From Holophagales bacterium (lineage in GTDB: Bacteria > Acidobacteriota > Thermoanaerobaculia > Multivoradales > Multivoraceae), in assembly GCA_009837885.1 (NCBI GenBank), contig VXSP01000046.1:62001-126000 (forward strand): a stretch of 64,000 nt of DNA. The letters are read 5' to 3'. The position numbers were made by a program, and so were the translations under genes. Each line of letters starts with the position of its first letter. Within the stretch, counting starts at the first letter, position 1. A model generated the notes under the pieces. The model saw only the letters and a list, made by a program, of their open reading frames with translations. It ran no database searches and was not told where the DNA came from. Of the stretch, positions 47,288 to 64,000 are shown piece after piece.

Positions 47288-49732
47288 CTAGGTCCGCACA
47301 CCCAGAAAGAGGTAGAGCGCCAGCGTCGCGAAGAGGGCGTTGGGGCTCCAGGCGGCGATCAGCGGCGGCAGGGCCTCGGACTGGCCCAGCGTGGTGAAGA
47401 CGCTGATCACGGTGTAATACACGATTCCCACGACGATCGAAATGCCAATGCCGTAGAGCGCGCCCTGGCGGCCCAGGCGAAACGCAAACGGCAGCGCCAC
47501 CAGAGCCATCACCAGGCTGACGACAGGCATGGCGGTCTTGTTGTGGAGCTGCATTTGCAGCTCCGGCACGTCGGTTCCCGCCGCCACGAGTGCGTCGATG
47601 TGGCGGCGGAGTTCGATCCGGTTCATCTGCTCGGCGTACTTGACCTCGGTGTTGAAGAACTCCGGGTCTTCCGGCAGGTCGACCGGCTGGGGACCGGCGA
47701 ATCGCTGACTGCCAGTGATCGTGAGACCATCGAACTCCCGAATCCAGGCGTCCACCAGCTCCCAGCGGCCCCTGCTGCCGTCGCCGGGGACGTAACGGGC
47801 CGCGGCCGCGTAGAGACGCCGCGTCAGCCGGTGTTGCGCGTCGAACCGGAACACCTGCAGCCGCTGCAGCGTGGCTCGGTCGGCGTCGTAGTGCCGGTAG
47901 TTGTAGATGTAGCCGCCGCCGTCCTCTTCCAGCGCGAAGCGCCACTGGCGGTCCGCCCGGTGGTAGCTCTTGACGGGGCCGGCATTCCCCCGAATCCGAT
48001 CCCTCAGTTCGACGACCTTCGCGTTGGACGCCGGTAGCACGGAGTTCTCCAGCGCGGCGCTCAGCAGGGCGACGCCGACCGCCGCGAGCAGCGCCGGCAC
48101 CGCAAGTCGAAACAGGCTGAAGCCAAGCGCCTTGGCGGCGACGATCTCGTTCCGTTGCGACAGCAGGCCGAAGGTGACGAGCGTCGTGACCAGAACGAGG
48201 ACCGGCGCGTTGTCGTAGAAGACCTGAAGGGAGAGGTACGGGTAGTACTCGAAGAAGACACCGGAAGGAACGTCGTTCCGGAGCATCTCGTCGACGAGCT
48301 GAGTGAAGTCGGAAACGATGAAGACCGCCAGGGCGGCGACGATCGTGACGGCAAGCACCCGGACGAAGACGCCGAATATGTAGCGGTCCAGAACTCCGGG
48401 GAAGCGGAAGCTCGGCGGTTCCATCCGGACCTTGACGCGTGCGCGGGTGGGGGAGGAAGGCAGCGACTGCGTCTGGGCGAGAGCCAGCCGGTGCTCGAGC
48501 GCGCGCCGCCTGCGTCCCCGGAGTTCCCGGAGGCGCCCGAGGCGGACGAGACGCCGCCACAGGTGGTCCCGAGTGAACCGGTCCACCGCGCTGATCATCA
48601 GGCTCTTGTCGCGGTTGCGGCGCCACAGCAGGAAGGTGCCGAGGACGCACAGAATGATGTTCGGCGCCCACATCGCCAGCCAGGGGGGCAGTTGGCCGCT
48701 CGCGGCCGCCTCCTCGCCGTTCCCCAGCAGGACGTAGTAGAAGAGGAAGATGCCCACCGAAACCAGAAAGCCGGATGAGCGCCCGCCGCGCCGGTTCCGA
48801 AAGCCGAGCGGGATGCCGTAGAGCCCGAACACCAGGCAGGCCGCCGGTATGGCGAACTTCTTGTGGATCTCGACCAACGCCCGGTTCCGCTCGGACGCCG
48901 TCCTCCCGGGCTCCGCGGTCCGCTCGAAGAGCTCGGTGAGTGTCATGGAACGCACGTCCTTCGCCAGCACCAGGCGCTCCTCGTGCCGGAAGAGGCCATC
49001 CTCGAGCGCGATGTTGGCGGCCCTGAGCCGCTGGAGGCGGTAGGCGCCAGGGTTGTTCGTGTCCACCTCGTGCACATCGGCGACACCGAACCGCAGGACC
49101 GCCTGGCCGGTGGTCTGGTTCAGGTTGATCTGTCCGGTTTCGCCCACGATCACCTGCTGTTGCGGTCCCGGCACCGCATCGGCGAGAAAGACGCCTCGCC
49201 ACCCGTCCTCGTTCTCGGGTGCCTCGAAGACGTAGAGAACGCGGTCCTGAAGCTGGTCGTAGAACACCTTCGGCTTCACCTGCTGACTGACGTTCCGGGT
49301 CAGGATCGAGAGGCGCAGTTCGCTGATCGCCTTGTTGCCCGCAGGAAGCGTGACCGTCGTCAGGTACCCGGTGACACCGGCCAGCACCAGGCTCATGAAC
49401 AGGATCGGCCGGTAGATCGCCCAGAGGCTGATGCCCGAGGCCCTCATCGCCACCAGTTCGCTGTCCGCCGCCAGGCGGCCGATCGCGATGAGAATCGCGA
49501 ACAGGAAGGCCATCGGGATCGTCAGGACGACGATGTGGGGCAAGCTGTACGCCAGCAACTGCAGTGCAACCGCGGCTTCCACGTTGCGGCCGATGATCAT
49601 CTCCGCGTACTGGAAGAGCTCCTGCATCAGGGCCAGGAACGTGAACACCAGGAGGCCGAGGACGAGCGGACCCGTGGTTTCGCGGAGGATGTAGCGGTCG
49701 AGGAGTCGGTACATCGCGGTTTCCGCCGCCAT
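47288..49732 (-). CDS. Fused LptF-LptG LPS export ABC transporter permease
   Basis: 814 aa with two YjgP/YjgQ permease units in one frame: N-half MYRLLDRYILRETTGPLVLGLLVFTFLALMQELFQYAEMII, C-half PGVLDRYIFGVFVRVLAVTIVAALAVFIVSDFTQLVDEML. Confidence 0.9.
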   Translation of the reverse strand: MAAETAMYRLLDRYILRETTGPLVLGLLVFTFLALMQELFQYAEMIIGRNVEAAVALQLLAYSLPHIVVLTIPMAFLFAILIAIGRLAADSELVAMRASGISLWAIYRPILFMSLVLAGVTGYLTTVTLPAGNKAISELRLSILTRNVSQQVKPKVFYDQLQDRVLYVFEAPENEDGWRGVFLADAVPGPQQQVIVGETGQINLNQTTGQAVLRFGVADVHEVDTNNPGAYRLQRLRAANIALEDGLFRHEERLVLAKDVRSMTLTELFERTAEPGRTASERNRALVEIHKKFAIPAACLVFGLYGIPLGFRNRRGGRSSGFLVSVGIFLFYYVLLGNGEEAAASGQLPPWLAMWAPNIILCVLGTFLLWRRNRDKSLMISAVDRFTRDHLWRRLVRLGRLRELRGRRRRALEHRLALAQTQSLPSSPTRARVKVRMEPPSFRFPGVLDRYIFGVFVRVLAVTIVAALAVFIVSDFTQLVDEMLRNDVPSGVFFEYYPYLSLQVFYDNAPVLVLVTTLVTFGLLSQRNEIVAAKALGFSLFRLAVPALLAAVGVALLSAALENSVLPASNAKVVELRDRIRGNAGPVKSYHRADRQWRFALEEDGGGYIYNYRHYDADRATLQRLQVFRFDAQHRLTRRLYAAAARYVPGDGSRGRWELVDAWIREFDGLTITGSQRFAGPQPVDLPEDPEFFNTEVKYAEQMNRIELRRHIDALVAAGTDVPELQMQLHNKTAMPVVSLVMALVALPFAFRLGRQGALYGIGISIVVGIVYYTVISVFTTLGQSEALPPLIAAWSPNALFATLALYLFLGVRT

Positions 49733-49770: not shown

Positions 49771-49798
49771 AGTTTACATAATGGACATTATCGGACGC
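49771..49798 (-). promoter_or_regulatory. Candidate dif site (XerC/XerD recombination site)
   Basis: Minus-strand reading GCGTCCGATAA-TGTCCA-TTATGTAAACT has the 11-6-11 layout; right arm identical to the remembered B. subtilis dif XerD arm (21/28 overall) and 19/28 with E. coli dif. Intergenic. Confidence 0.75.
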
Positions 49799-49840
49799 AG
49801 TAGGCCCGAGCGGCGCAAGGGAGCACCTTAGCGATTCGCA

Positions 49841-49860
49841 GCCGGGCCTTCCAGCCCGGC
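49841..49860. terminator. Perfect 7-bp GC-rich hairpin, possible terminator
   Basis: GCCGGGC-CTTCCA-GCCCGGC; no T-run. Confidence 0.35.
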
Positions 49861-50163
49861 GCCTGACGTGCGGCCCGAGGGACCTAGTTCCTGCGGACGG
49901 TCAACACCGGCAGGAGCAACGCCAAACGGTCCGGCTGCGGGCCAAGCTACCGGGATCGGCTCCGGAGCGCGTCGCGGCGGCGCTGAGCGGATGCCGTGGG
50001 CCTAGAAGGCCGAGACTCGATCCCGCAAATCCAGGCAACGGGCCGGTAGTTGATCCGGCGAAGGGCCTACGTCCTGGTCCAAATCCGGTTGTAGCAGACC
50101 GAGGGAGAGAGCGGCGCGGCGTGGTGATGGCCAGACGGCCCACCGGCGAGAGCACACCAGGGC

Positions 50164-50248
50164 GAGCGCGCGCCGCGCTCCGGCTGCGTTTCCGTAGGAC
50201 TACGGGGCCGAATCGCTGCGCTCATTCGGCCAGATCCGGACCCGGATC
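50164..50248. repeat. Cluster of four consecutive perfect inverted repeats
   Basis: GAGCGCG/CGCGCTC (50164-50180), CCGTAG/CTACGG (50192-50205), GGCCGAAT/ATTCGGCC (50206-50231), GATCCGG/CCGGATC (50233-50248). Confidence 0.75.
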
Positions 50249-50273
50249 GGTGCTCTATGCCGCCGTCTGACCA

Positions 50274-50306
50274 TGCAGGAGCGGTCTGGAAGGCCGCACC
50301 CCTGCA
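50274..50306 (+). repeat. Nested hairpin in leader of the ardC operon
   Basis: TGCAGG-AGCGGTCTGGAAGGCCGCACC-CCTGCA with inner GCGG/CCGC. Confidence 0.5.
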
Positions 50307-50352
50307 AACCGGTGGGGATGGCCCCGCTATGGCTGAAACGAAGGGAGAGACC

Positions 50353-50568
50353 ATGAAAAGACAGCGACTGACCGACACTCACGACCAGGAAGTCATCGAG
50401 GCTTCCACCGAGGAAGCGCTCGCGGCCGCCTTGAACGCCGCCGTCAAGACCGGTGTTCCGGTCTGCGCCGATCCAGCGCTCCTCGCCCGCTTCGGCATTG
50501 CCGATCACGGCGAGGACCTGGGTGACCTGGACCTGGTCTTCCCCGACCTTGTGCCGCAGTCGAGTTAG
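50353..50568 (+). CDS. Small conserved-looking hypothetical protein upstream of ardC
   Basis: ATG after GGGAGAG ribosome-binding-like sequence; MKRQRLTDTHDQEVIEASTEEALAAALNAAVKTGVPVCADPALLARFGIADHGEDLGDLDLVFPDLVPQSS, tail-to-head with ardC. Confidence 0.55.
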   Translation: MKRQRLTDTHDQEVIEASTEEALAAALNAAVKTGVPVCADPALLARFGIADHGEDLGDLDLVFPDLVPQSS

Positions 50569-51972
50569 ATGGCTCGATCCAAGGACCGGATCGGCGACTA
50601 CCACCGGCAGGTCGCCGACAAGCTCATCGAGCAGCTGAAGGCCGGTACCGCTCCCTTCCAAAAGCCCTGGAAGCCCGGGGAGCGCTCCCTCCCCGAGAAC
50701 CTCACCACCGGTCGCAGGTATCGCGGTGGCAACAGTCTCTTTCTGAGCGTCGCCGCCCAGGACAAGGGCTACACCGACAACCGCTGGGGAACCTACCGAC
50801 AGATCGTCGGCGCCGGCGGCCACGTCAAGAAGGGCGAGCGCGGTACCAAGGTCCTCTTCTTCTCCACCGAGAAGGTTGAGCAGGCCAAGGACGAGCAGGG
50901 CCGACCCAGGCTCACCGATTCCGGCGAGCCTGTCTACGAACGTCGTGAGACGGACCGGCCCTACGTCCGCACGTACACGGTCTTCAACGCCGAACAGACG
51001 GGCGGCCTGCCCGAGCGCCCACCGGCCTCCCCTGAGCCCGAATGGAAGGCCCACGAGCAAGCCGAGGCGATCATCGAAGCGAGTGGCGTCGACGTCCGCC
51101 ACCAGGCCGGCGATCGCGCCTACTACAACGTCCGCAAAGACCAGGTCGTTCTCCCCGAGCCAGGGCAGTTCCCCAGCGCCGGCAGCTACTACCAGACGGC
51201 AATCCACGAGTTGGGCCACGCCACGGGCCATCCCGATCGCCTGAACCGCGACACCCTCGGCAAGAAGTTCGGCAGCCCTGAATACGCGAGGGAGGAGCTC
51301 CGCGCCGAGATCGCCGCGATGATGACCGGCGAGAAGATCGGCCTGGGCCACGAACCCCAGAACGCCAGCGCCGCCTACGTCGCCAGCTGGGTGAAAGCCC
51401 TTGAAGACGACCCCAGGGAGATCTACCGCGCCGCGGCCGACGCGGAGCGGATCTCCCGCTATCTCATCGAACCCGCGCGCGAGCGCATCGAACAGCGCGA
51501 GCAACAGGCCCCGAAACAGCCCGCAGCCGAGGTTCAGGACCGTCAGCCTGGCCCGGAGCTCGAGCGCGGCGACGAAGCCGCTCCCACCCAGGCTCTCCAG
51601 GCCGCGGCGGCCAACCAGGAGGCCGGCGCCCGGTTCAACCAGAACATCTCCCGCGCGGCTGACGCCGCCTTGGACGTCCTCCGCCGCAACGGCAACGAGG
51701 ACCGTCCCCTCGAGCAGCTAATCCGCGACCTCCAGGCCGTCCACTTGGCCGCCTCGCAGAATGCCTACACGCCGAAGACGGCCGACTTCCGCAGACTTCG
51801 CGGCGACCTGCAGAACCTTGCGATCGACGCCCAATCGCTCAGTTCGGACGAGCGCAAGGCCGTCCTCATCGTCGCCGACAACTTCGCCAACCAGGCCCAA
51901 GGCCACGCGCTTCACGACCGCGCGATCGCCGAACGAGCGTCCGCCCGCGACGACGGACCCACTCGCGGATAG
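50569..51972 (+). CDS. ardC: ArdC-family antirestriction protein (ssDNA-binding domain + zincin metalloprotease)
   Basis: PFQKPWKPGERSLPENLTTGRRYRGGNSLFLSVAAQDKGYTDNRWGTYRQI, GERGTKVLFF, zinc motif YYQTAIHELGHATGHPDRL. Confidence 0.9.
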   Translation: MARSKDRIGDYHRQVADKLIEQLKAGTAPFQKPWKPGERSLPENLTTGRRYRGGNSLFLSVAAQDKGYTDNRWGTYRQIVGAGGHVKKGERGTKVLFFSTEKVEQAKDEQGRPRLTDSGEPVYERRETDRPYVRTYTVFNAEQTGGLPERPPASPEPEWKAHEQAEAIIEASGVDVRHQAGDRAYYNVRKDQVVLPEPGQFPSAGSYYQTAIHELGHATGHPDRLNRDTLGKKFGSPEYAREELRAEIAAMMTGEKIGLGHEPQNASAAYVASWVKALEDDPREIYRAAADAERISRYLIEPARERIEQREQQAPKQPAAEVQDRQPGPELERGDEAAPTQALQAAAANQEAGARFNQNISRAADAALDVLRRNGNEDRPLEQLIRDLQAVHLAASQNAYTPKTADFRRLRGDLQNLAIDAQSLSSDERKAVLIVADNFANQAQGHALHDRAIAERASARDDGPTRG

Positions 51973-51977
51973 CTCCG

Positions 51978-52877
51978 ATGAGCCGCTTCCCGGACCCCAG
52001 AGATGCTCATCGCCAGGGCCAGAGCGCGCCGTCTCGAGAACGCGGCCACCGCCGCGAGCTCGCCGGCCGACACTCAGAGCGCCGCTCCTTCCAGGACCGG
52101 TTGCAAGCGTCCCTGGTGGACGTAGCCATCCACCGCGCTGTCGCCTCGCGCGACCTGGTCGACCGCCAGTTCGGAGGCCATCTCTTCGCCGGCCGCCGCG
52201 GCATCGACAACCTCAAGAAGTCCGGCCTGGTCGAGGAGCACGAACTCCGCGACACGAAGACCGCTCGCATCACCAAGGTCCTCACGGCGACGCCGGCAGG
52301 CCGTCGCCTCGCCGGCGACGTGGCTCCTCTGCGGGGCTGGGCCTCCGACCAGCGCACTTGGAGCGGTCTGGGCAAGAACGCCGACCTCAAGCACGACCTG
52401 GCTCTCTACCGGGCCGTCGCGGAAACCCGTGAGCGCCTGGCCGAGCGCGGCCTCCACCTTCGGCGCGTCCGGCTCGACGCCGAGATGCGCGGCGAGATGA
52501 TGAAGCGCACGGAGGCCGTCCGCGCCGCGCACGGCCGCAATGCGGCCGACGCCCTGCGCGAGGGAATCGCCGAGCGACTTCAACTGCCCCTTGACGACAA
52601 GGGGGCGGTCCTCTGGCCAGACGCGCAGATCGAGGTTGCCCGCGAGCCGGACGGCCCGGTCGAAGGCCGGGTCAACATCGAGATCACCACCGAGCACTAC
52701 TCCCGCGCCTCGATCGCCGCGAAGAGCGCCGCGGGCTTCGCTCTCTTCCCGGCGAACCCGAAGGCCGCCCGTCACCTCTCGGCGACTTTGAGCGGCCTTG
52801 GCTCGTCCACTGGCGGCCGCGATGCCGCGAGCGGCAGTGGCCGCTTCCGCGGCGAAGGCGGACTCCTAGACCTATGA
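51978..52877 (+). CDS. Mobile-element hypothetical protein with probable winged-helix domain
   Basis: SLVDVAIHRAVASRDLVDRQFGGHLFAGRRGIDNLKKSGLVEEHELRDTKTARITKVLTATPAGRRLAGD reads as a wHTH; located in the conjugation operon. Confidence 0.5.
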   Translation: MSRFPDPRDAHRQGQSAPSRERGHRRELAGRHSERRSFQDRLQASLVDVAIHRAVASRDLVDRQFGGHLFAGRRGIDNLKKSGLVEEHELRDTKTARITKVLTATPAGRRLAGDVAPLRGWASDQRTWSGLGKNADLKHDLALYRAVAETRERLAERGLHLRRVRLDAEMRGEMMKRTEAVRAAHGRNAADALREGIAERLQLPLDDKGAVLWPDAQIEVAREPDGPVEGRVNIEITTEHYSRASIAAKSAAGFALFPANPKAARHLSATLSGLGSSTGGRDAASGSGRFRGEGGLLDL

Positions 52878-53047
52878 GCCCGCCGCCCCTTCTCGGCACT
52901 GGCACCGGTGCCGGCGCCCACGTCGTGGCCGTCCTGATGCTCCTTGTTCCGTTTCTCGTCTACCTGGACGCTCCTTGCCCCGACCGCCCTCTCGACGCGG
53001 CCCAGCGAGCCTGGGCCCGCGTCACTGGCCGCAACAAGGACCACTGA
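52874..53047 (+). CDS. Small hydrophobic protein (57 aa)
   Basis: MSPPPLLGTGTGAGAHVVAVLMLLVPFLVYLDAPCPDRPLDAAQRAWARVTGRNKDH; ATG overlaps the upstream stop; one TM. Confidence 0.5.
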   Translation: MSPPPLLGTGTGAGAHVVAVLMLLVPFLVYLDAPCPDRPLDAAQRAWARVTGRNKDH

Positions 53048-53048
53048 T

Positions 53049-53114
53049 ATGGGCTACTCCGCCATTCCGCTCGCCAAGGTGCTCCAGGACTCCCTTGAAC
53101 CTCTGAGGACCTAA
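53049..53114 (+). pseudogene. Truncated duplicate of the start of the 53292-53621 gene
   Basis: MGYSAIPLAKVLQDSLEPLRT* versus MGYSAVPLAKVLQDSLIAWSLL...; DNA nearly identical over about 50 bp. Confidence 0.7.
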
Positions 53115-53116
53115 CG

Positions 53117-53290
53117 ATGCCACCAACACCAGCAGCGACCTCATCGCCTACCAGGGCAGAAATCCGCCAGATCGCCCGGACCGAGGCACGCAAGATCGTT
53201 CGTCGCGAGCTAGACGTTTTCCGGTTGTGGTTGCGCCGCTTCGAGGAGAGCTCTCCCAAGCGTCCCGCCACGAACAACCAAGACCACTGA
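53117..53290 (+). CDS. Small charged hypothetical protein (57 aa)
   Basis: MPPTPAATSSPTRAEIRQIARTEARKIVRRELDVFRLWLRRFEESSPKRPATNNQDH; directly precedes the full-length downstream gene. Confidence 0.45.
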   Translation: MPPTPAATSSPTRAEIRQIARTEARKIVRRELDVFRLWLRRFEESSPKRPATNNQDH

Positions 53291-53291
53291 C

Positions 53292-53621
53292 ATGGGCTAC
53301 TCAGCCGTGCCGCTCGCCAAGGTGCTCCAGGACTCCCTCATCGCCTGGTCCCTCCTCTGTGTCTGCATCGTCTTCGTCCTGCTCGTCGCCGGCGTCGCCG
53401 TCGAGGAGCGCCGGGAGCGTCGACGGCTCGAACGCGCCTTGGCCGTCGCCCGCCAGGTTCTGCCCTTCCGTAAGGAACCCGTCGCCATCCCGTCGCGCCC
53501 CTTCCGCCCCGACATCGACGCCCACCACGCTAGGCATCGCCTCTGGCTCTTCCCCATCGTCGCGATCGTCCTAGGCCTGATCGTCGCCGTGTGGTCTATC
53601 TGGAACGTCCTCACCACCTGA
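53292..53621 (+). CDS. Small membrane protein of the conjugation operon (two TM)
   Basis: ORF 109 aa; TMs SLLCVCIVFVLLVAGVAV and LFPIVAIVLGLIVAVWSIW. Confidence 0.55.
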   Translation: MGYSAVPLAKVLQDSLIAWSLLCVCIVFVLLVAGVAVEERRERRRLERALAVARQVLPFRKEPVAIPSRPFRPDIDAHHARHRLWLFPIVAIVLGLIVAVWSIWNVLTT

Positions 53622-53625
53622 TCCC

Positions 53626-53943
53626 GTGCACACCTGGCGCATCAGCTTCGGAGTCACCCTGGTCCTGGCCGCTCTCCTGGCGTTCTACGCCTCAGCGCGC
53701 TTGGACTTCCTCGCGCCCCACAGCCGCCTGATCGTTCAGGACTATTGGCTCCCCATCACCCTTTACACCTTCCTCGCCGCGGCCACCTTCATGGTCGCCC
53801 TGGCGGCCGTGCTGCGCCGTCTCGGCCTCCACGACGTGGGCAGGAAGGTCGACCTGGTCGAACGCTCTCTCCGCCGTGGAGAGGGCGACCCCGACTTGAC
53901 GCGTCGCCTCGCCGATCAAGAGCAAGGCGAGTTCGTCGAGTAA
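53626..53943 (+). CDS. Small membrane protein of the conjugation operon (two TM)
   Basis: ORF 105 aa; ISFGVTLVLAALLAFYAS and LPITLYTFLAAATFMVALAAVLRRL; GTG start. Confidence 0.55.
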   Translation: MHTWRISFGVTLVLAALLAFYASARLDFLAPHSRLIVQDYWLPITLYTFLAAATFMVALAAVLRRLGLHDVGRKVDLVERSLRRGEGDPDLTRRLADQEQGEFVE

Positions 53944-53972
53944 CACCACTCCCCCAACAAAGGAGGACTTCC

Positions 53973-54290
53973 GTGACCCCAGAAACCCTCAACGCGAAGC
54001 CGCTGGCTCCGCCCTCCCGACGCCGGAAACTCACCATCCGGCTCACCACCCTCCTCGTTCTGGTTCCCGCCCTGGCCATGGCTCAAACGAGCCCGTGGAC
54101 CACGGCCGTCAACCAACTCCAGGCGGCCTTCACCGGTCCGATCGCGCGGGGCCTCAGCCTGGTGGCGCTTGTCATCAGCGGCCTCATGTTCGCCTTCGGT
54201 GAAGGCGGCAGCAAGAAGCTCCTGGCCGGCGTGATCTTCGGACTCGCCATGACGATGGGCGCCGTCCAGTTCCTCGGATGGATCACCTGA
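53973..54290 (+). CDS. trbC: TrbC/VirB2-type conjugative pilin
   Basis: Signal peptide ending PALAMA, then TSPWTTAVNQLQAAFTGPIARGLSLVALVISGLMFAFGEGGSKKLLAGVIFGLAMTMGAVQFLGWI. Confidence 0.85.
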   Translation: MTPETLNAKPLAPPSRRRKLTIRLTTLLVLVPALAMAQTSPWTTAVNQLQAAFTGPIARGLSLVALVISGLMFAFGEGGSKKLLAGVIFGLAMTMGAVQFLGWIT

Positions 54291-54508
54291 AGCGGACGGG
54301 CAACGTGGACCTCTTCCCTGACCCCGCGTTCATGGCGCTGGTTACCAGCGCTCTGCTCGCCGCCTTCAGCTACCCACGCCGCCGGCGTTACCCGGCGGCC
54401 GTGTCCATGGCCGCTCTATCGATCGGCCTCAACGAGCTCCACCACGCGGCGGCCAGTCTGCCCGCCGACCTCATCCCCTTCGCCGTCGGCATCGCGACCG
54501 GCCTCTAG
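54278..54508 (+). CDS. Small membrane protein between virB2- and virB3-type genes
   Basis: 76 aa ORF overlapping the trbC stop; hydrophobic segments LVTSALLAAFSY, LIPFAVGIATGL. Confidence 0.4.
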   Translation: MDHLKRTGNVDLFPDPAFMALVTSALLAAFSYPRRRRYPAAVSMAALSIGLNELHHAAASLPADLIPFAVGIATGL

Positions 54509-54514
54509 CTCCCG

Positions 54515-54805
54515 TTGCGCGGCGAGAAACCATGGTACGGCCACCCGGCGCTCTCACGCCCGATGAAGATCCTGGGCGTGGAGCGCCGGTGGTTCCTCCT
54601 CTCCGCCACCTTCGGCGGAGCAATCTGGAACGGCCTTAACTCGATCATCACCGCAGTCCTCGTCTTCGCCGTCCTCTACGCGGCCGGCTTCCTCGCGTGG
54701 AAGCGCGATCCCAACATGCTTTCGATCCTCGCGAAGGCCGGCTCGGGCCGCCCGCGGTACGACGCCGGCAAGGAGTCCAAGTGGCATCTCCACCTCATCG
54801 AATGA
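54515..54805 (+). CDS. trbD: TrbD/VirB3-like protein
   Basis: HPALSRPMKILGVERRWFLLSATFGGAIWNGLNSIITAVLVFAVLYAAGFLAWKRDPNMLSIL; typical VirB3 topology and position; TTG start. Confidence 0.75.
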   Translation: MRGEKPWYGHPALSRPMKILGVERRWFLLSATFGGAIWNGLNSIITAVLVFAVLYAAGFLAWKRDPNMLSILAKAGSGRPRYDAGKESKWHLHLIE

Positions 54806-54866
54806 CCACTCCGTTCTTCGCTGAAACCGCAGACCAACTCCCTGTCTCCGCGCCGTCAGCAACAGC

Positions 54867-57287
54867 ATGAATCTCGACACCGAACGCACCGATCACGAGG
54901 CTGCCGGCAGCCTCGCCGAGGAACTCCCCTATTGGGGCTGGCTTGACGAGCACCCCTTCTGCCTGACACGCGACGGCGAACTCCTCGCCATCGCCGAGCT
55001 CTCCCAGGCCGTCGTTGACGGCCGCACCCCGCAACAGATGGACGAGGTGCTCAATCGCTGGCTACGCCTCCTCTCGTCCCTCGATCCCCAGACCCGCCTC
55101 TACTTCTATCTCCTCCGCCGTCCGGGCCGCCTGGCAGCCATCGACGGCCTTGACGGCGTAGCCGCCATCTCCCAGGAGAAGCGCCGGCGCTTCCTTGAGC
55201 GCCGCGTCCAGGACCTCCGCGCCTACGTCGTCTGGTCGCACGACGCCCAGCTCAAGGCCAACGCACGAACCGGCAACGCCGGCGTCCTCGCGGCGGTCCG
55301 GGAGTGGATCAAGAACCGCACCAAGCCTGACGAGTGCGCCTTCCTCCTCCGCCACGTCACTGACGCGGCCGAACGCTTCCGCCAGCTCGTGGACGCCTCC
55401 GCAGCCCTGGCTTCCGACGTCACTCCGCTCCGCCTGCTTTCGGCGCCCGAGGCCAGCGCCGTCCTCTCCGACCTCATCAATCGGCCCGGTCAACCCTGGC
55501 ATGGCGATCACATACCGAGCGCGCTCAACTGGCGCCTCGCGTTGTCGGAACTCGAGGCGGAGCGACGCTTCCTCCGCCTCGATGGCCAACCCCTGATCAT
55601 CTACAACCTGACCTCCCCTCCCGTGCAGGCCCGAGCGAATCTCCTGCAGGAGCTCTACCGCCTCGAAGCCCTGCTCACCGTGTCCCTGGAGTGGCGGCCG
55701 CAGCCGCTCGCTTCCTCGCGACGGAAGATCCGGAGCGTTCAGCGTCACTACTTCAGCAAGCGCTACTCAATGGTCGCGCACATGCAGGACTCCCAAGGCA
55801 CCGCCGCGGCCATGGTCGATTCTGCGGCCGACGCTGAATCCAGCCGCATCGCTCACGCCCTGGTCGAGCTCGAAACCGAAGGAGTCGCCTACGGCGACCT
55901 CTCCCTGACGATCGCCCTTCACGGCGACGACCTGGCTCAGATCGAGGCCCTCGATGCCGAACTCTTCCGCATCTTCGGCTCAGCCGACGCCAAGGTCATC
56001 CGGGAAGGCTTCGGCCAGCTACCCGCCTGGTGGAGCCGCTTGCCCGGGCAACCCCGCAAGCGCCAGATCCGGAGCGTCTTCGGCAGCGCCGGCGTCGCCG
56101 CTTGCCTCGCACCGTTGTTCGGGCCCCCTCCTGGCCAGGCCGAATGCAAGCACCTGACGCGGCCGGCCATGGCGACCTTCGAGACGCCCTGGCGCACTCC
56201 CTACCACTACGACCTCTTCGCCGGCGGCGATGTTGGTCACACCCTCATTCTGGGCGCCACCGGCGCCGGCAAGAGCTTCGCCCTCAACTTCCTTCTCGTC
56301 CAGGCCCAGCAGTACTCCCCTCGCATCCTCGTCCTCGACCTGGGCGGCTCCTACAAGTGGCTCACACAGTTCATCGGCGGCGGCTACCTGGAGCTGAACC
56401 CTGACGCCACCGGCGCAGACGTTGCCCTCAAGCCCTTCAGTCTTCCTCCCGGCGAGCGGACCTTCAGCTTCCTCACCGGCTGGATCACCCGCCTCCTCCG
56501 CATCGGCGGCTACGAGCTCAAGGGCGAGGACACCACCGAGCTCCGCGAACGCATCGAGGACCTCTACAGAAGCCCAGCCCCGGAGCGTTCACTCTCCTCC
56601 CTGGTCCGCACCCTGCCTTCCGCCATGTGGCCAGCTATGAGCCGCTGGCACGGTGAGGGCGCCTGGGCGCGCTTCTTCGACGGAGGCGGTGAGGACACCC
56701 TCGAACTCGCCGACTGGCAGGTCATCGACCTCGCGGGCGCCGCCGAACACGACGACCTCTGCGAGGCCGCGCTCTTCTTCCTGCTCGAACGGCTACGCCT
56801 GGCCCTGGACGCTCCCACCGAAGCCGGCCGCGTGAAGCTCATGGTGGTGGACGAAGCCTGGCGCTATCTCAACGATCCTGCCGTCCTCACCTACCTCGCG
56901 GAAGCCGCGAAGACATGGCGCAAGCGCAACGCCGCCCTGGTCCTCGCCACCCAGAGCGCCGTCGACCTCACCGACACGGACGGCGCCCAGGCCCTCCTCG
57001 AATCACTCCCCACCAAGCTCTTCCTCGCCAACCCGGATCTGCCCGCCGCGGTACAGAACACCTTCCGGCTCAACGACACCGAAATGCAGACGATCCGCGG
57101 GCTTCTTCCGAAGCGCGAGATGTACCTCCGCCGCGCCAACGAGGCCGGCGTCGTCCGCCTCGAAGTGGATCCGGAGTCCTACTGGCTCTACACCAGCTCG
57201 CCCGTCGACAGTGAACGCCGCGCCGCGGCCGTCGCCGAGCACGGCCTGGCCGATGGCCTTGCCGTCCTTGCCAACAACAGGAGGTAA
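54867..57287 (+). CDS. trbE: TrbE/VirB4-type conjugation ATPase
   Basis: Walker A HTLILGATGAGKSFALNFLLVQ, Walker B KLMVVDEAWRYL, LVLATQSAVDL. Confidence 0.95.
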   Translation: MNLDTERTDHEAAGSLAEELPYWGWLDEHPFCLTRDGELLAIAELSQAVVDGRTPQQMDEVLNRWLRLLSSLDPQTRLYFYLLRRPGRLAAIDGLDGVAAISQEKRRRFLERRVQDLRAYVVWSHDAQLKANARTGNAGVLAAVREWIKNRTKPDECAFLLRHVTDAAERFRQLVDASAALASDVTPLRLLSAPEASAVLSDLINRPGQPWHGDHIPSALNWRLALSELEAERRFLRLDGQPLIIYNLTSPPVQARANLLQELYRLEALLTVSLEWRPQPLASSRRKIRSVQRHYFSKRYSMVAHMQDSQGTAAAMVDSAADAESSRIAHALVELETEGVAYGDLSLTIALHGDDLAQIEALDAELFRIFGSADAKVIREGFGQLPAWWSRLPGQPRKRQIRSVFGSAGVAACLAPLFGPPPGQAECKHLTRPAMATFETPWRTPYHYDLFAGGDVGHTLILGATGAGKSFALNFLLVQAQQYSPRILVLDLGGSYKWLTQFIGGGYLELNPDATGADVALKPFSLPPGERTFSFLTGWITRLLRIGGYELKGEDTTELRERIEDLYRSPAPERSLSSLVRTLPSAMWPAMSRWHGEGAWARFFDGGGEDTLELADWQVIDLAGAAEHDDLCEAALFFLLERLRLALDAPTEAGRVKLMVVDEAWRYLNDPAVLTYLAEAAKTWRKRNAALVLATQSAVDLTDTDGAQALLESLPTKLFLANPDLPAAVQNTFRLNDTEMQTIRGLLPKREMYLRRANEAGVVRLEVDPESYWLYTSSPVDSERRAAAVAEHGLADGLAVLANNRR

Positions 57288-57293
57288 CTCATC

Positions 57294-58133
57294 TTGCACA
57301 TTCCACCGCCGATCGCGGCCGTGATCGCCCTCGCTTCGGCTCTTCCACTCGCGGCCCAGGATGCCCACATCCTGCGCCTGGACGCTTCCGTCGACGCGGT
57401 CTGGCAACTCAACACCCGCGTCCGTCACACCACCGTCATCACCCTGCCGGCCTCCGAGAACATCCTCGACTTCGTCGTGGGCGACCTGGACTACTGGCAC
57501 TTGAGCGGAAGCGCGAACGTCGCCTTCCTCAAGCCCACCGAGCCGGGCGTCAAGACCAACATCGCCCTGGTCTGCGAATCCGGCCGGATCTACCCCTTCC
57601 TCGTCTCCGAATCCTCCGAAACACCGCCCCATCTCGTGGTCCGCTTTGACCCTGCGGAACCCGACTTGGCCGCGGCGGACGGTGAAGCTCACCGGCCAGC
57701 CTTCGTCGCCGCCGACCAGGTCGCCTCCTACCAGAGCATGGCCAGAGCGGCCGCCGAGGCGGCCGCTGATCACCGGCGGACCGCGACCGAGGAGATCGCC
57801 GCGGCCAAGGCCGACGCCGCGGACCAGGTCAACGGCTTCCGCGCCGAGTACCCGACTCGTGTCCGCTTCCCCTACCGTCTCCAGGAGAAGGCGAAGCGCT
57901 GGCCCTTCCTGGTCGAGGGCATGTGGCACGACGGCCAGTTCACCTATCTGCGAAGCCTCTCCCAGGAGTCTCCAGCCCTCTACGAACGGAAGGACGGACA
58001 GCCTTCCCTGATCCCCTACGACCTGACCGAGGACGGGCTCTACGTCGTCCGGCGAGTCATCGGCGACGGCTGGCTCCAGATCGGTAAGCAGCGCGTCACC
58101 TGGACCTTCGACGAACCCGACCCCCTCCATTAG
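57294..58133 (+). CDS. trbG: TrbG/VirB9-type conjugal transfer protein
   Basis: VWQLNTRVRHTTVITLPASENILDFVVGDLDYWHLSGSANVAFLKPTEPGVKTNIALVCESGRIYPFLVSE; C-terminal DGLYVVRRVIGDGWLQIGKQRVTWTF. Confidence 0.85.
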   Translation: MHIPPPIAAVIALASALPLAAQDAHILRLDASVDAVWQLNTRVRHTTVITLPASENILDFVVGDLDYWHLSGSANVAFLKPTEPGVKTNIALVCESGRIYPFLVSESSETPPHLVVRFDPAEPDLAAADGEAHRPAFVAADQVASYQSMARAAAEAAADHRRTATEEIAAAKADAADQVNGFRAEYPTRVRFPYRLQEKAKRWPFLVEGMWHDGQFTYLRSLSQESPALYERKDGQPSLIPYDLTEDGLYVVRRVIGDGWLQIGKQRVTWTFDEPDPLH

Positions 58134-58135
58134 CC

Positions 58136-59428
58136 ATGCCCGACTGGAAGCAAATGGTCCCCAAGCCGGTCGGCTCTATCCCGGCCGGCCTGATGAACAA
58201 GCTGGTCGCCGGCCTCGCCGTCGTCCTCGTCATCGCGATCATCGCCGCCACCATAGGCGGTGCTGGAGAGGAGGAGGATGGCGCCGAAGCCGACGCTCTT
58301 GACCAGGCCCCGGCCGATCCCTTCATGGCGGATCGGCTGGACAGCGAGGTCGAGAACCAGCTCCAACTCGCCGTCGGCGAAGCCGATCAGCGGGAGGCGG
58401 ACGCGCAGCGCGAAGCGATCCGGGACCGCAACCTCGAACTCCTCGCACCGGATCCGGATCCCGGTGAAAGCGTTCTTCTCCGCCTCGCCGGCATCGCCGA
58501 CGACGACGCCGAAGAGGAGCCCGATCCTTGGGACCCCGAGGCCTTCGCCCCTGAGGAGGCAGAACTCCGCCTCAAGCTCCACCTCGAGGCGGTCGAGCGC
58601 AGGCAGCGCTCCCTTCTCGCCGTGCCCGTCGCCTACTCCGCCCGCAAAGTCGACGACGACGCCGGCCACGACAACCCCCCTCCGCCCTCGCCGCACGAAC
58701 GTCTCCTCGACACCATTCTCGGGACCGCCGCAGCCCAACAGTCGACCACGGGGACAGGCCCCGGGGCCGCGGCGGTCCCACCGGGCGGCACGCTTGACGT
58801 GCCGCTTCCCGACTCCGACAACCTGCCCTCCTACCGCGCACCCGACCAGGTCAGCTCCCCGGCCGATCCGCGCGGCAGCCACAGAATCTATGAAGGCTCC
58901 TTCGTCGAAGCCGTCCTGATCACCCAACTGAGCGGCGACTACCCGAGCCCCGCCGTCGCTCAGGTCGCCGTCCCCTTCTACAGCGGCGATCGCCAGACCA
59001 CTCTGATCCCCCGCGGTAGCCGCTTCATCGGCACGGTTCAGGCCGTCCGCCACCAGGACCAAACCAGGCTCGCGATCGGCTTCCACCGCCTTGTGTTCCC
59101 CGACGGCCGCTGGGCCGCGCTCCGCTTCCAGGGCCTCAATCAACTCGGAGAAGGCGCGCTCAAGGACCAGGTCGATCGCCACTACCTGAGCACCTTCCTC
59201 GCCGCCGGCGGCGTCGGCCTCCTGAGCGGCCTCGCGGCGGCAGGCGCCACCGTTCAAGACCAGTTCCAGCTTGGCACCGCGAGGAGCTTCTCCGAAACCG
59301 GCATCCAGATCATGGACCGGTTTCTCAACCGGCTCCCCACCATCACCATCCGCGCCGGCCACCGCATGCGCGTCTGGTTCACCAGCGACCTCCTCATTCC
59401 ACCCCCCGACACAGGAGACATCCAATGA
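58136..59428 (+). CDS. trbI: TrbI/VirB10-type conjugal transfer protein
   Basis: YEGSFVEAVLITQLSGDYPSPAVAQVAVPFYSGDRQTTLIPRGSRFIGTVQAVRHQDQTRLAIGFHRLVFPDGRW. Confidence 0.92.
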   Translation: MPDWKQMVPKPVGSIPAGLMNKLVAGLAVVLVIAIIAATIGGAGEEEDGAEADALDQAPADPFMADRLDSEVENQLQLAVGEADQREADAQREAIRDRNLELLAPDPDPGESVLLRLAGIADDDAEEEPDPWDPEAFAPEEAELRLKLHLEAVERRQRSLLAVPVAYSARKVDDDAGHDNPPPPSPHERLLDTILGTAAAQQSTTGTGPGAAAVPPGGTLDVPLPDSDNLPSYRAPDQVSSPADPRGSHRIYEGSFVEAVLITQLSGDYPSPAVAQVAVPFYSGDRQTTLIPRGSRFIGTVQAVRHQDQTRLAIGFHRLVFPDGRWAALRFQGLNQLGEGALKDQVDRHYLSTFLAAGGVGLLSGLAAAGATVQDQFQLGTARSFSETGIQIMDRFLNRLPTITIRAGHRMRVWFTSDLLIPPPDTGDIQ

Positions 59429-60288
59429 CCCCCACCTCACCACTGCGACGCACCGTCGCCACCCTCCTCCCCATCCTCATCCTTGCCGGCGGAATTCCCG
59501 CCCTCGCCATATTCGGCTTTGGCGACATCGTCCTCGACCCCGCCAACCTCGTCGAGAACGCGCTCACCGCCGGCTTCCAGGACTTGATCAACGACACCAT
59601 CCAGAACCAGCTTGACCACCTCGAGGAGAAAGCCCTGGGCGAGATCGGGAAGCTCACCGAGAGCTTCGCCGAGCTCACGGGACTACCGATGCCTCTCCTC
59701 GACAACTTCGACACCCTCACTTGGGCCGGCGACTTCAGAGGCGATCCCGGTCAACTCCTCCAGAACTTCGCCAGCATGCAGGACCCGAACGCGGACCCGC
59801 TCACCGATTACTGGCGGCAGTACCTGGCCCAGGCCGACACCGTTTCGCGCCAGCGCTACGCGAACACCTTCCGCGACGTCGCCGGCGCTTCCGACAAGTG
59901 GCTTGCGCAGCGCGAGCAGGCCGACCGCGCCCGCATCTTCGACTACACCGCACTCGACAGCGCCGAGCGCATCATCGAGCTACTCGGCAACGCGTCTGAC
60001 GCCGTGGAGCGTAGCCGCGGTCAGACCAACCTCAGCGACACGGCGCTCGCTCAGGAACAGCTTGCCAACCAGATCACGGTCGCCGAGATCGACATGGCCG
60101 TCGCCGAACTCCTGGCCCAGACCACCGTCCGCGAGGCGATGGACCGGCAGACCCTCGAACTCCAACGCCGCCACCAGCTCGAAGCCTGGGTCACCGCCGA
60201 GCGGACCGAAGCTAGGCAAGCCGACCGCGCCCAGAACCGCCTTCGAGGACAGCGCAACGCTTGGCGTCAGGCCTTCCTCCTCGACTGA
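59425..60288 (+). CDS. trbJ: TrbJ/VirB5-like conjugal transfer protein
   Basis: Signal peptide, FGFGDIVLDPANLVENALTAGFQDLINDTIQNQLDHLEE, long helical C-terminus; position between virB10- and virB6-type genes. Confidence 0.7.
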   Translation: MTPTSPLRRTVATLLPILILAGGIPALAIFGFGDIVLDPANLVENALTAGFQDLINDTIQNQLDHLEEKALGEIGKLTESFAELTGLPMPLLDNFDTLTWAGDFRGDPGQLLQNFASMQDPNADPLTDYWRQYLAQADTVSRQRYANTFRDVAGASDKWLAQREQADRARIFDYTALDSAERIIELLGNASDAVERSRGQTNLSDTALAQEQLANQITVAEIDMAVAELLAQTTVREAMDRQTLELQRRHQLEAWVTAERTEARQADRAQNRLRGQRNAWRQAFLLD

Positions 60289-60300
60289 TCCACCGGACCG

Positions 60301-61443
60301 ATGGCCAGTCGTCCCTCCGCTACAGGCCGATTCTCGGCGACCTGCGTCTTCAGGCGTAAGTCCTGCCCCGGATCCGGATCTGGGGCCTCACGCCGACCGC
60401 TAGTGCTGCTCCTCGCAGCCGCGGCGCTTCTCCTCCTCACCTCCTTACCGGCCGCCGCCCAGCTGCCGAACCAGGTCAACCCGAACACCGTCGGCCAGCT
60501 CCCTCAGTTCGTCGACACCGCCATCAACATCGTCCTCTCGGGCACCCCGCAGAACACGATCCTCGGATGGGGCCGCCAGATGATGCGAGGCATCGTCCTC
60601 ATCCTCATCGTCTGGACCGGACTCCGCGTCGCCTTCAGCGGGACCTTTCACACCTGGGAGCTCATCAAGTTCGTCATGACCTTGCTCATTCCCTGGACGA
60701 TGGTGGAGTCCTACTACACCCCCATCCCAGGGCTCGGCACCTCGTTCGTCGACCTGATCACAGAACAGGGTAACCAGATCATGCAGCTCTTCGGCGCGGA
60801 CATCCTCGCCCAGGGCGCGGCCACTGTCATGGAACTCGCCGAGGATCACATGCGGCTAGTCGGCGAGGAAGCCGCGTCCCTCAACATCTGGAACGCGATC
60901 CGCACCGGTGGCAAACAGGTCACCCACCTAGCGCTCTTCGTTGCCATCTTGGGGAGCTTTGTGCTCGGGATGATCGTCGTTGTCGCCCTCGCCCTTGCTC
61001 AGGTCATCTTCGCCAACGTCGCGACCGCGGTCCTCACCACGCTCGGGCCGCTCTTCATCCCGTTCATGATCGTGCCGAAGATGGACTTCCTCTTCTGGGG
61101 CTGGTTCAAGGCCATGATCCAGTACTCCCTCTACAGCGCGGTCGCCGCCGTCATGGTGAGTATCTGGACCCGGATCATCCTCACATACACGCGCTCGCTC
61201 GAAGCCACCGACTTCACCATCAACTCGTTGACCGCGGCCACCGGCGTCTGGCTACTGCCAGTCTTCGCCGTGATCGTGTGCGCCATCGTCTCCATCGTCA
61301 AGATCGGCGATATCGCCGGCATGATCGTCGGGGCCGGCAGCGACGGCGGCGGCTTCATCGGCGGAGCCTTCCTGGCTGGCCGCATCGTCGCCGCCCCAGC
61401 CCGCGTAGCCGCCGCGCCGCTGAAGGGAGGACTTCCCACGTGA
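60301..61443 (+). CDS. trbL: TrbL/VirB6-type conjugal transfer membrane protein
   Basis: Polytopic; GWGRQMMRGIVLILIVWTGLRVAF, QVIFANVATAVLTTLGPLFIPFMIVPKMDFLFWGWFKAMIQYSLYSAVAAVMVSIWTRII. Confidence 0.85.
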   Translation: MASRPSATGRFSATCVFRRKSCPGSGSGASRRPLVLLLAAAALLLLTSLPAAAQLPNQVNPNTVGQLPQFVDTAINIVLSGTPQNTILGWGRQMMRGIVLILIVWTGLRVAFSGTFHTWELIKFVMTLLIPWTMVESYYTPIPGLGTSFVDLITEQGNQIMQLFGADILAQGAATVMELAEDHMRLVGEEAASLNIWNAIRTGGKQVTHLALFVAILGSFVLGMIVVVALALAQVIFANVATAVLTTLGPLFIPFMIVPKMDFLFWGWFKAMIQYSLYSAVAAVMVSIWTRIILTYTRSLEATDFTINSLTAATGVWLLPVFAVIVCAIVSIVKIGDIAGMIVGAGSDGGGFIGGAFLAGRIVAAPARVAAAPLKGGLPT

Positions 61444-62099
61444 GCCAATCCAAGCCGAACCCCGGCAAGGAGTTCGCCGACATATGGGGCGAGATCGTCG
61501 TTTCCAACCGTCACTTTCGCCTCGCCACCTACGCTCTCGCGGCCATCCTTGGCCTTCTCCTCGTCATCGTCGTCCGTCTCTCCAGCGTCGAGCTTCCCAA
61601 GCCCATCGTCATTCGCGTCGACGAGGTCGGGCGAGCCGAAGCCCTCGCCTACGAGGCCGTCGAAGCCCAGGCCGATCCCCTGGACCCGACCACCAAGTAC
61701 TTCCTCGCGGCGTTCGTCAGTGACCACTACAGCCGGCGTCAGGCCACCGCCCGAAACGCATGGAGCCGCTCCCTCAACTTCCTCGTCACGGAACTGGCGG
61801 ACGGGGCCTTCCGCCGCGACGGCCAGGCCGTCGCAACCGTGGCGGCCGGCCTCGCGGAGGAGGAGCGGCAGGTCGAGAACGTCCGCCTCTCCATTCAGCC
61901 GCAGCCCGAGGCCCCGCATTCCGCCACGGCCGACTTCGACGTCGTCGTCTTCAAGGACGCCGCGGAGGTCTCGCGAGAGCGCTGGAGCCTCGCCATGCAG
62001 TTCATCTTCCTGGAGCAGGTCCCGCCCAGCCTCATCACCGTCAACCCCATGGGCATCCTCGTGACCTACCTCCAAGCGGATCAGGCCGTCGACTTCTGA
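61440..62099 (+). CDS. trbF: TrbF/VirB8-type conjugal transfer protein
   Basis: GTG start overlapping the trbL stop; FADIWGEIVVSNRHFRLATYALAAILGLLLVIVVRLSS, VTVNPMGI-type ending SLITVNPMGILVTYLQADQAVDF. Confidence 0.82.
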   Translation: MSQSKPNPGKEFADIWGEIVVSNRHFRLATYALAAILGLLLVIVVRLSSVELPKPIVIRVDEVGRAEALAYEAVEAQADPLDPTTKYFLAAFVSDHYSRRQATARNAWSRSLNFLVTELADGAFRRDGQAVATVAAGLAEEERQVENVRLSIQPQPEAPHSATADFDVVVFKDAAEVSRERWSLAMQFIFLEQVPPSLITVNPMGILVTYLQADQAVDF

Positions 62100-62100
62100 C

Positions 62101-63078
62101 GTGGCGCTCAAGGCTCCCGCTGTCCCGCACCTGGCCGGCCGCGACGCTGCGCTGCGCGACCTCGACTTCCGAGAGTGGGAAGCCGCTTGGCTCACCCTCG
62201 TCTGCCTCCACTCCGGCGTCTTTACGAGGACCCAATTCACAGAGCATCACGCCTGCTCTACTGACACGACTCATGCCTTCGTCCGCCGCCTGGTCGACGC
62301 CGGCATCGCCAGGGAGCATCCGCTTCCCGAGGTCGACACCAGGCTCCAGTACACCCACGTGCATGGCCGCAGCCTCTACCGCGCCCTGGGCATCGAGAAC
62401 GTCCGGCATCGCCGGGCGGCCGAGGACGTGGTTCTGTTCCGTCGTCTCCTCTCCTTCGACCACGTGGTTCGGCATCCCCGCCTCCCCTGGCTCGCCACGG
62501 AGCCCGAGAAGGTCGCTCACTTCACCGGCCGCGGCCTTCGCCTCGACCAGCTCCCGAGCCGCCTCTACGGCGGCCCGGCGAAGCGCACCCGGCGCTACTT
62601 CGCACTGAAGCTTCCGATCGCCGCCGACGAAACGTCGGCGACGTTCGTTTACGTCGACCCCGGCCGCAATACCGACCGCGAACTACAGCGCTGGGCTGCC
62701 GAGCACCATGCTCTCTGGAGCCACCTCCGAGCCGCTCGAACTGAGGTCCGCGTTGCCGTGGTGGCGCGGACCATCACGGCCCAGCACCACCTCTCCCGGA
62801 AGGTCGCGGCCTGGGCCAACGCTAGCTCGACAGCTCAGCCGCTCACCGAAGACGAGCGGCAGACCTTGGCCGCGGCGGACGCCGATCTCGACGTCGCCCT
62901 CGCCACCGGCAATCCCCGATCACTCGAGCGCTGGGGCGGTCTCAATCCCTGCCGCCGCCTCGTCATCTCCCTTCGGACACGAGCGGATCTTGAAGGCGCC
63001 GGCGACACTTCGAACCCACGCATCGACGCCTATTCGTCGCACCACGCTCGCGGTCTCGCGCCCCAGGCTCTCGCATGA
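62101..63078 (+). CDS. Winged-helix protein, replication-relaxation-like, in the conjugation operon
   Basis: LDFREWEAAWLTLVCLHSGVFTRTQFTEHHACSTDTTHAFVRRLVDAGIAREHPLPEVDTRLQYTHVHGRSLYRALGIENVRHRR; long C-terminal alpha/beta region. Confidence 0.5.
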   Translation: MALKAPAVPHLAGRDAALRDLDFREWEAAWLTLVCLHSGVFTRTQFTEHHACSTDTTHAFVRRLVDAGIAREHPLPEVDTRLQYTHVHGRSLYRALGIENVRHRRAAEDVVLFRRLLSFDHVVRHPRLPWLATEPEKVAHFTGRGLRLDQLPSRLYGGPAKRTRRYFALKLPIAADETSATFVYVDPGRNTDRELQRWAAEHHALWSHLRAARTEVRVAVVARTITAQHHLSRKVAAWANASSTAQPLTEDERQTLAAADADLDVALATGNPRSLERWGGLNPCRRLVISLRTRADLEGAGDTSNPRIDAYSSHHARGLAPQALA

Positions 63079-63109
63079 CTCCGCGTTGCACCAGGATCCG
63101 CTCCAGAAC

Positions 63110-63160
63110 CGAAAAAGGACAGCACCCCCTATCTTCGATCCCTGACGCTCTCCTTTTTCG
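63110..63160. repeat. Perfect 10-bp inverted repeat (A/T-tract arms)
   Basis: CGAAAAAGGA (63110-63119) and TCCTTTTTCG (63151-63160). Confidence 0.75.
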
Positions 63161-63214
63161 TTTGTCCTCTTTCGGGGACGGCGCGGGAATTGTCCTCGTA
63201 ACGCTTAGCGTTTC

Positions 63215-63244
63215 TCGGGCTCCCTTCCCCGAATGCGCCCTCCC
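63215..63244 (+). other. Candidate oriT nic region
   Basis: TCGGG-CTCCCTTC-CCCGA inverted repeat directly followed by ATGCG/CCCTCCC, resembling (from memory) IncQ/MOB_Q nic sequences. Confidence 0.3.
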
Positions 63245-63252
63245 GGGCGCAG

Positions 63253-63281
63253 CGACCCGACCGCACGAGGCGGTCGGGTCG
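63253..63281. repeat. Perfect 12-bp inverted repeat hairpin
   Basis: CGACCCGACCGC-ACGAG-GCGGTCGGGTCG. Confidence 0.85.
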
Positions 63282-63379
63282 GGACGTGAGCGACCCCGCC
63301 TTTCGGCCGCCTGGTGCGGCACGAAAGGCTCTCCCGTTTTCGGCCCTTGTGCCGGGCCGCGGGAGGGTCGCTCACGTCC
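63282..63379. other. Putative three-way-junction structured element (RNA or ssDNA)
   Basis: P1: GGACGTGAGCGACCC (63282-63296) / GGGTCGCTCACGTCC (63365-63379). P2: GCCTTTCG/CGAAAGGC (63298-63305 / 63322-63329) with inner GCCGC/GCGGC. P3: CTCCCG/CGGGAG (63331-63336 / 63360-63365) with inner GGCCC/GGGCC. Confidence 0.7.
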
Positions 63380-63415
63380 AGAGTGATCCCTGCGGGAAGG
63401 CTCAGACTGGACGCC

Positions 63416-64000
63416 ATGACCACCGCGAACGACACGCCCGCGCCGGCGGCCGCGCGTCTTATCGGCCGCCTTCTCTGGCCGGTGGTCGTAGGCGCCGGCG
63501 TTCTGGTGTTGACGCTCCGCTTCGCTGCTTGGCCAAGCCCAGGCAGCGTCGCCTGGCTCGACTCCCTCGCCCTACGAACCGCCGCCGACTTCGCCCTCGT
63601 GCGCGCGGCCTGGTGGGCCACTCTCGCTACCGCGCTCGTGGTCGCGGCGAACTTGATCCCCGCCGCGGTCCGACGCACTCTCGATCGCGGGGGCCGCGTC
63701 GCCGGCGCCGGCGTTCACCGCCGCCTCGGCCGGCTTCTCCGGGCGCTGCGCAGGATCCTCACGCTCCGCCTACTGGCCGCCCTCTCGGTCGGTTTCGGAG
63801 CCCTCCGGTGGGCCGGCCAGGTCCGGCCCTTTCCAGCGACAGGCGACGATGCCGTTCTTGACTTCATCGCGTACCACGATCCCGCGGTCCACGCCCTCAT
63901 CCGGGCCTGGCACGTCGCGGCACCCGGCGTCGTTGCGTTCGGAGGAGTCCTCCTCCTCTCCGGGGCGGCCCGCGTCTGGCTCGGTTCGCGAGCCGAGTCC
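63416..64000 (+). CDS. Membrane protein of the conjugation module, possibly the N-terminus of a type IV coupling protein (partial, runs off the right edge)
   Basis: Open from ATG 63416 to the window end; TM segments IGRLLWPVVVGAGVLVLTLRFAA, WWATLATALVVAANLIPAAV and GVVAFGGVLLLSGAARVWL. No ATPase motif is visible yet. Confidence 0.35.
   Translation, partial: MTTANDTPAPAAARLIGRLLWPVVVGAGVLVLTLRFAAWPSPGSVAWLDSLALRTAADFALVRAAWWATLATALVVAANLIPAAVRRTLDRGGRVAGAGVHRRLGRLLRALRRILTLRLLAALSVGFGALRWAGQVRPFPATGDDAVLDFIAYHDPAVHALIRAWHVAAPGVVAFGGVLLLSGAARVWLGSRAES

Follow-up and report, generated by a model that had tools for sequence, protein, structure and literature searches.

The 64,000-nucleotide stretch of DNA analysed here (the window) contains a 28-bp sequence that looks like a dif site and lies directly beside a set of conjugation genes. 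This raises the question of whether the sequence is the true chromosome dimer resolution site or the attachment site of an element that hijacks XerC and XerD. The initial annotation of the window offered both alternatives and suggested as checks a whole-genome scan for dif, an inspection of GC skew and a search for a second copy at the opposite end of the element. Read on the minus strand, the site consists of an XerC arm (GCGTCCGATAA), a 6-bp spacer (TGTCCA) and an XerD arm (TTATGTAAACT), which is the layout that the annotation had described. In a comparison with reference dif sequences taken from the literature (PMC3025954), 19 of the 28 positions were identical to E. coli dif, reproducing the annotated count, and 21 of 28 were identical to B. 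subtilis dif. The XerD arm is identical to that of B. subtilis over its whole length (11/11), as the annotation had stated. The site is intergenic, as had been stated, with the lptFG start codon (position 49732) on one side and the first element gene on the other, and the conjugative module with its VirB/VirD4 genes does adjoin it, starting at the XerC-arm edge.

We asked how often this sequence occurs. The 28-mer was matched once in the window and never in 100 shuffled sequences. The genome under study (G000) is a metagenome assembly of 47 contigs, and the window is part of a 145-kb contig, C37. When up to 3 mismatches were allowed, the whole-genome scan returned this one full copy in 4.56 Mb, and a reversed control pattern returned no match; a second full dif within 3 mismatches is thus ruled out. 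With a free-spacer pattern, 45 of 60 relatives were found to have dif-like sites, usually a single one, and in most of the relatives whose surroundings were read, the site adjoins lptFG and/or a parB homologue, an arrangement that is conserved across the order. Previously, Kono et al. had predicted dif in three acidobacterial genomes (PMC3025954).

The position of the site relative to GC skew and the replication origin region was also informative. The GC skew of C37 switches sign at dif, and although part of this change is due to the strong skew of the element itself, same-genus relatives with an empty site also switch at dif (e.g., from +0.07 to -0.03); the skew check suggested in the annotation was thus positive. 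In G019, which is assembled as a single 4.63-Mb contig, dif (398.9 kb) and dnaA (2,727.4 kb) lie 50.2% of the contig apart, and the sampled GC skew changes sign at both. G000 encodes XerC (340.7 bits versus an NCBIfam cut-off of 335.15), XerD (351.8 bits versus 329.6) and an FtsK with a gamma domain. Judged from its sequence and setting, the 28-mer is the chromosomal dif of this sponge-type acidobacterium. A candidate FtsK-orienting octamer (GGGNAGGG) was no more than mildly skewed (43 versus 22 occurrences in 380 kb of G019 samples).

The surroundings of dif vary within the order. The orientation of dif relative to its conserved neighbours, compared at window positions 49771-49798, in L054, L055, L056 and L057 and at G067:C73, flips such that the XerD arm faces lptFG in this genus and parB in the other genera checked. 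In both element-bearing genera, the element is located on the XerC-arm side of dif, and so its position follows dif and not the neighbouring genes. A parB homologue (C37:133822-134724, equivalent to window coordinate 71822-72724, beyond the window) sits directly beside the terminus dif, as parB does throughout the order (L054-L057). The parAB genes are usually found near the origin. A ParA-like gene is adjacent in other genera; in this genus, ParB was seen at dif with no adjacent ParA-like gene. Extra dif-like sites occur in members of the order at G043:C43:130137, G043:C25:257275, G036:C43:25918, G050:C503:9792 and G023:C214:5241, and the usual dif neighbours are missing around those whose surroundings were read. 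These extra sites may represent other dif-using elements or secondary replicons. In G025 (L170), the gap between lptFG and dif is about 5 kb, wider than in most relatives, and possibly reflects another insertion.

A weak-site scan of the 145-kb contig then yielded the second copy that the annotation had proposed looking for, one strong partial dif (C37:133740-133767) at the far end of the element, beyond the window. On the minus strand, it consists of an XerC arm with the genus consensus sequence (GCGTCTGATAA), the same TGTCCA spacer and a divergent XerD half (GTGTGTCGACA), and it agrees with dif at 10 of 11 positions in the XerC arm, all 6 positions of the spacer and 6 of 11 positions in the XerD half. 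Relatives lacking the element supplied the corresponding empty site. G006 aligns to C37:101692-111796 and then to C37:133745-143717, each at 89% identity, and because the two alignments overlap only inside dif, 21,969 bp must have been inserted exactly at dif. G008, G003, G004 and G018 behave like G006, with the element absent and the flanks collinear (about 85 to 93%); against these five relatives, the collinearity of G000 ends at dif and resumes at the partial copy or shortly after it. The half-site TGGACATTATCRGAC was present once in 19 of the 20 other genomes of the genus, was absent from G007 and was present twice only in G000 (a control pattern gave no matches), and the strong negative GC skew of the inserted DNA is bounded by the two sites. 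The 28-mer is the left end of a 22-kb element inserted at dif. The two alternatives originally offered are therefore supported together, and the combination of a better dif elsewhere, absence of this site from relatives and no second copy, which the annotation had named as contrary evidence, was not found.

The sequences of the two junctions suggested how they were formed. The XerC arm contains CGGAC at the left site only and CAGAC at the right site and in every genus relative with a match. Since the left-site base was seen in no genus relative, the left XerC arm appears to have come from the element. The left XerD arm is the chromosomal one, and the right XerD half is that of the element. On the simplest reading, the right XerC arm is chromosomal, the left one is element-derived and the strands crossed over within the 6-bp spacer or immediately beside it. 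The coordinates of both junctions and of the genes between them are given in Table 1.

Table 1. Features of the dif locus and of the inserted element, in window coordinates. Gene coordinates beyond 64000 are extrapolated past the end of the window.
Feature	Position	Strand	Basis
LptF/LptG permease fusion, chromosomal left neighbour of dif	47288..49732	minus	PF03739, 524 bits; beside dif in relatives
dif / attL (left junction)	49771..49798	minus	sequence read, single-copy scan, genus comparison
Whole element, about 22 kb (21,969 bp)	49799..71767 (C37:111799-133767); in-window part 49799..64000	plus	empty-site alignments, GC skew
First element ORF, 103 aa, no Pfam family	50257..50568	plus	homologues in related elements
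ArdC-like antirestriction protein	50569..51972	plus	PF08401, PF18818
Conserved element protein, 299 aa, MarR-like winged-helix region	51978..52877	plus	AlphaFold model pLDDT 83.6, weak MarR matches
VirB2/TrbC pilin	53745..54290	plus	PF04956
VirB3	54515..54805	plus	PF05101
VirB4 ATPase	54867..57287	plus	TIGR00929, E 5e-80, under curated cut-off
VirB9 (CagX)	57294..58133	plus	PF03524; TIGR02781 under cut-off
VirB10 (TrbI)	58136..59428	plus	PF03743
Possible VirB5/TrbJ-like protein, 287 aa	59425..60288	plus	position and sequence character, without family match; conserved in related elements
VirB6 (TrbL)	60301..61443	plus	PF04610
VirB8	61278..62099	plus	PF04335
Conserved element protein, 325 aa, winged-helix region	62101..63078	plus	AlphaFold model pLDDT 85.2, weak MarR fold matches
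VirD4-type coupling protein	63314..65878 (window holds 63314..64000)	plus	PF10412, PF12696; NF045973 weak
VirB11	65920-66945		
HicA-like	67717-67920		assigned by position only
HicB-like	67917-68129		
ParA	68258-68878		
Ribbon-helix-helix protein	68892-69164		
Trypsin-like protein	70451-71443	minus	
attR (right junction)	71740-71767 (C37:133740-133767), outside window	minus	weak-site scan, genus comparison

Like an integrative and conjugative element (ICE), the element carries a mating-pair-formation set together with a coupling protein (VirB2, -3, -4, -6, -8, -9, -10 and -11 and VirD4). Small membrane proteins are encoded between the 299-aa protein and VirB2, and a 185-aa ORF without an assigned family lies between the genes for the ribbon-helix-helix and trypsin-like proteins. 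The best matches of the transfer genes are to VirB/Trb families and not to the F-type families of the gonococcal island GGI, and, with this P-type-like type IV secretion system, the element is presumably conjugative or DNA exporting. No Pfam relaxase was matched by the element ORFs scanned, and PF03432 had no match in the genome. The idea that a relaxase is hidden in the 299-aa or 325-aa protein gained no support, as their models match mainly MarR-type winged helices, none at E <=0.001. Six-frame searches revealed no tyrosine recombinase on contig C37 and no serine recombinase in the genome, and no integrase remnant was found in the element (best tblastn match, E 2.6). Window positions 50000-64000, G067:C73:55000-85000 and G060:C3:1-30000 all show a strong GC skew of about 0.18, the coding strand being rich in C; because this skew is also seen in elements away from dif, it belongs to the element.

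Related elements provided a wider context. Relatives of the VirB4 protein come mostly from metagenome-assembled Acidobacteriota, and the isolate names suggest that the hosts are sponge symbionts. The elements at L058-L064 and those of the G067 group have a backbone homologous to that of the G000 element (ArdC, VirB2-VirB11 and VirD4), and the G060 element additionally shares HicAB, ParA and the ribbon-helix-helix protein with it. Unlike the G000 element, those of close relatives (L058-L060 and L062-L064) have their own tyrosine recombinase adjoining the core. No dif-like sites were found around the genus-mate elements (L058-L067), and in each of G060, G061, G062 and G064, dif is a separate site with lptFG and parB as its neighbours. 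In G060, a 3.4-kb direct repeat that includes the integrase (99.8% identical; G060:C3:1-3390 and 29398-32787) flanks the related element, which suggests a tandem or circular form.

A homologous element is also found at dif in a second genus, that of G067; in G067 it is 35.0 kb long and is bounded by dif on one side and, on the other, by a half-site whose XerD arm is divergent. Five of the eight genomes of this genus have two half-sites and three have one. Wherever both half-sites are on one contig (G067, G068 and G069), a homologous type IV element lies between them, and in the three genomes with one half-site, DNA aligns to both element flanks and the element is missing. Like the G000 element, the G067-group elements are located at dif, but they encode a 321-aa tyrosine recombinase that shares 60% identity with the L058 integrase over 304 aa. 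At L191, L192 and L193 of this genus, a short inverted repeat follows the XerC arm of dif, and at the end of this repeat is an inverted sequence resembling an XerC arm plus spacer (GATAAGG).

Precise insertion at dif with empty sites in relatives, dif-like sites at both ends and the lack of a detectable dedicated integrase are features by which an integrative mobile element exploiting Xer (IMEX) is recognized, and all three were found here. We consider it highly probable that the 22-kb element integrated through the host XerC and XerD proteins and, in so doing, rebuilt a functional chromosomal dif. We infer XerCD catalysis, like the stability, excision and transfer of the element, from sequence, and the steps would be as follows. 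The circular form of the element would carry an attP consisting of a good XerC arm (GCGTCCGATAA), a spacer matching that of the host (TGTCCA) and a poor XerD arm (GTGTGTCGACA). Strand exchange by the host XerC and XerD would take place within the spacer, with attP and the chromosomal dif (GCGTCTGATAA-TGTCCA-TTATGTAAACT) as partners, giving a full dif with the chromosomal XerD arm and the element XerC arm on the left and a defective site with the element XerD half and the chromosomal XerC arm on the right. With a full dif restored at one end, the left site would continue to resolve chromosome dimers. FtsK would probably be unable to activate recombination at the weak right site, such that the element would stay in place and rarely excise.

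The principal competitor to XerCD-mediated integration is the idea that the element was inserted by a tyrosine integrase of its own, like that of its G067-group kin, and that the gene was later lost, with the host Xer proteins taking no part in catalysis. The presence of the 321-aa recombinase in elements that lie at dif, and its similarity to a genus-mate integrase, mean that a dedicated integrase may have carried out that insertion and, in principle, the one in G000. We nevertheless regard this course of events as unlikely. Members of the same integrase family are carried by the elements of L058-L060 and L062-L064, which have no dif-like site nearby, and the separate dif sites of G060, G061, G062 and G064 remain between lptFG and parB; moreover, the G000 element retains no trace of an integrase, and a kept XerC arm and spacer next to a divergent XerD arm fit the use of XerCD.

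An artefact of assembly, in which an extrachromosomal element was joined to dif by the assembler, is far less probable still. A single contig contains both junctions and, to either side of them, collinear chromosomal DNA, the identical stretch common to the two sites is short, and the same arrangement recurs on single contigs in G067, G068 and G069. These observations outweigh the fact that the genome is a metagenome assembly and that a short repeat could be common to the chromosome and a circular plasmid bearing a dif-like site. Elements often accumulate near the terminus, which lends some plausibility to an ordinary dif with an unrelated conjugative element next to it and a coincidental second half-site, but we give this explanation almost no credence: both ends of the insert coincide with dif sequences, relatives have the exact empty site, the half-site is single in each of the 19 relatives in which it occurs and the pattern is repeated in the G067 genus. 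The empty-site alignments rule out chance closeness of dif and the conjugation genes.

Integration of the G000 element through XerCD would have parallels in known systems. The GGI of Neisseria gonorrhoeae has an intact dif at one flank and, at the other, a site in which the XerC arm and the central region are preserved and the XerD arm is divergent (PMC5357621, PMC9765430); it thus resembles the G000 element in being inserted at dif with one full dif and one flank with a divergent XerD arm. The weak dif flank of the GGI is reported to resist FtsK-activated recombination (PMC5357621, PMC9765430). A further resemblance is that the GGI carries parA and parB (PMC4207684). The GGI has transport genes of the F type, including one for a TraI relaxase, and secretes ssDNA (PMC4207684), whereas the G000 element has VirB/Trb (P-type-like) genes, no recognized relaxase, a host in the Acidobacteriota and a size of about 22 kb, compared with 57 kb. 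The attP of the TLC phage of Vibrio cholerae keeps the XerC site and central region and has a highly divergent XerD site (PMC5357621), which is the layout predicted for attP of the G000 element, although TLC is a satellite phage and the G000 element is a type IV secretion element. LME-1 of Legionella likewise integrates at dif through a dif mimic, leaving one modified dif (PMC9765430), but its host has a single recombinase, XerL, whereas G000 has XerC and XerD. A Vibrio IMEX encodes XafT, an activator of XerD (PMC9765430).

We found no papers on dif-integrated elements in Acidobacteriota in the open-access literature, which is weak evidence of their absence. Xer-hijacking elements have been described from a handful of Proteobacteria, mostly as Vibrio phages and the gonococcal island. 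The locus analysed here extends the Xer-exploiting strategy to another phylum, with empty sites and two host genera, and dif is now defined for a largely uncultured order. More tentatively, a single conjugation backbone in sponge-type Acidobacteriota might alternate between two modes of integration, relying on a tyrosine integrase of its own at sites other than dif and on host XerCD at dif. It would then have arrived at dif on two or more occasions, in different genera, and have dropped the integrase in G000; we see this as a possibility worth stating, short of an expectation. If the G067-group elements still use XerCD in spite of their own integrase, they would be dual-mode elements. Related conjugation backbones thus occur in nature as pairs, one with an integrase and one lacking it, and these make the switch from a dedicated integrase to host Xer enzymes testable.
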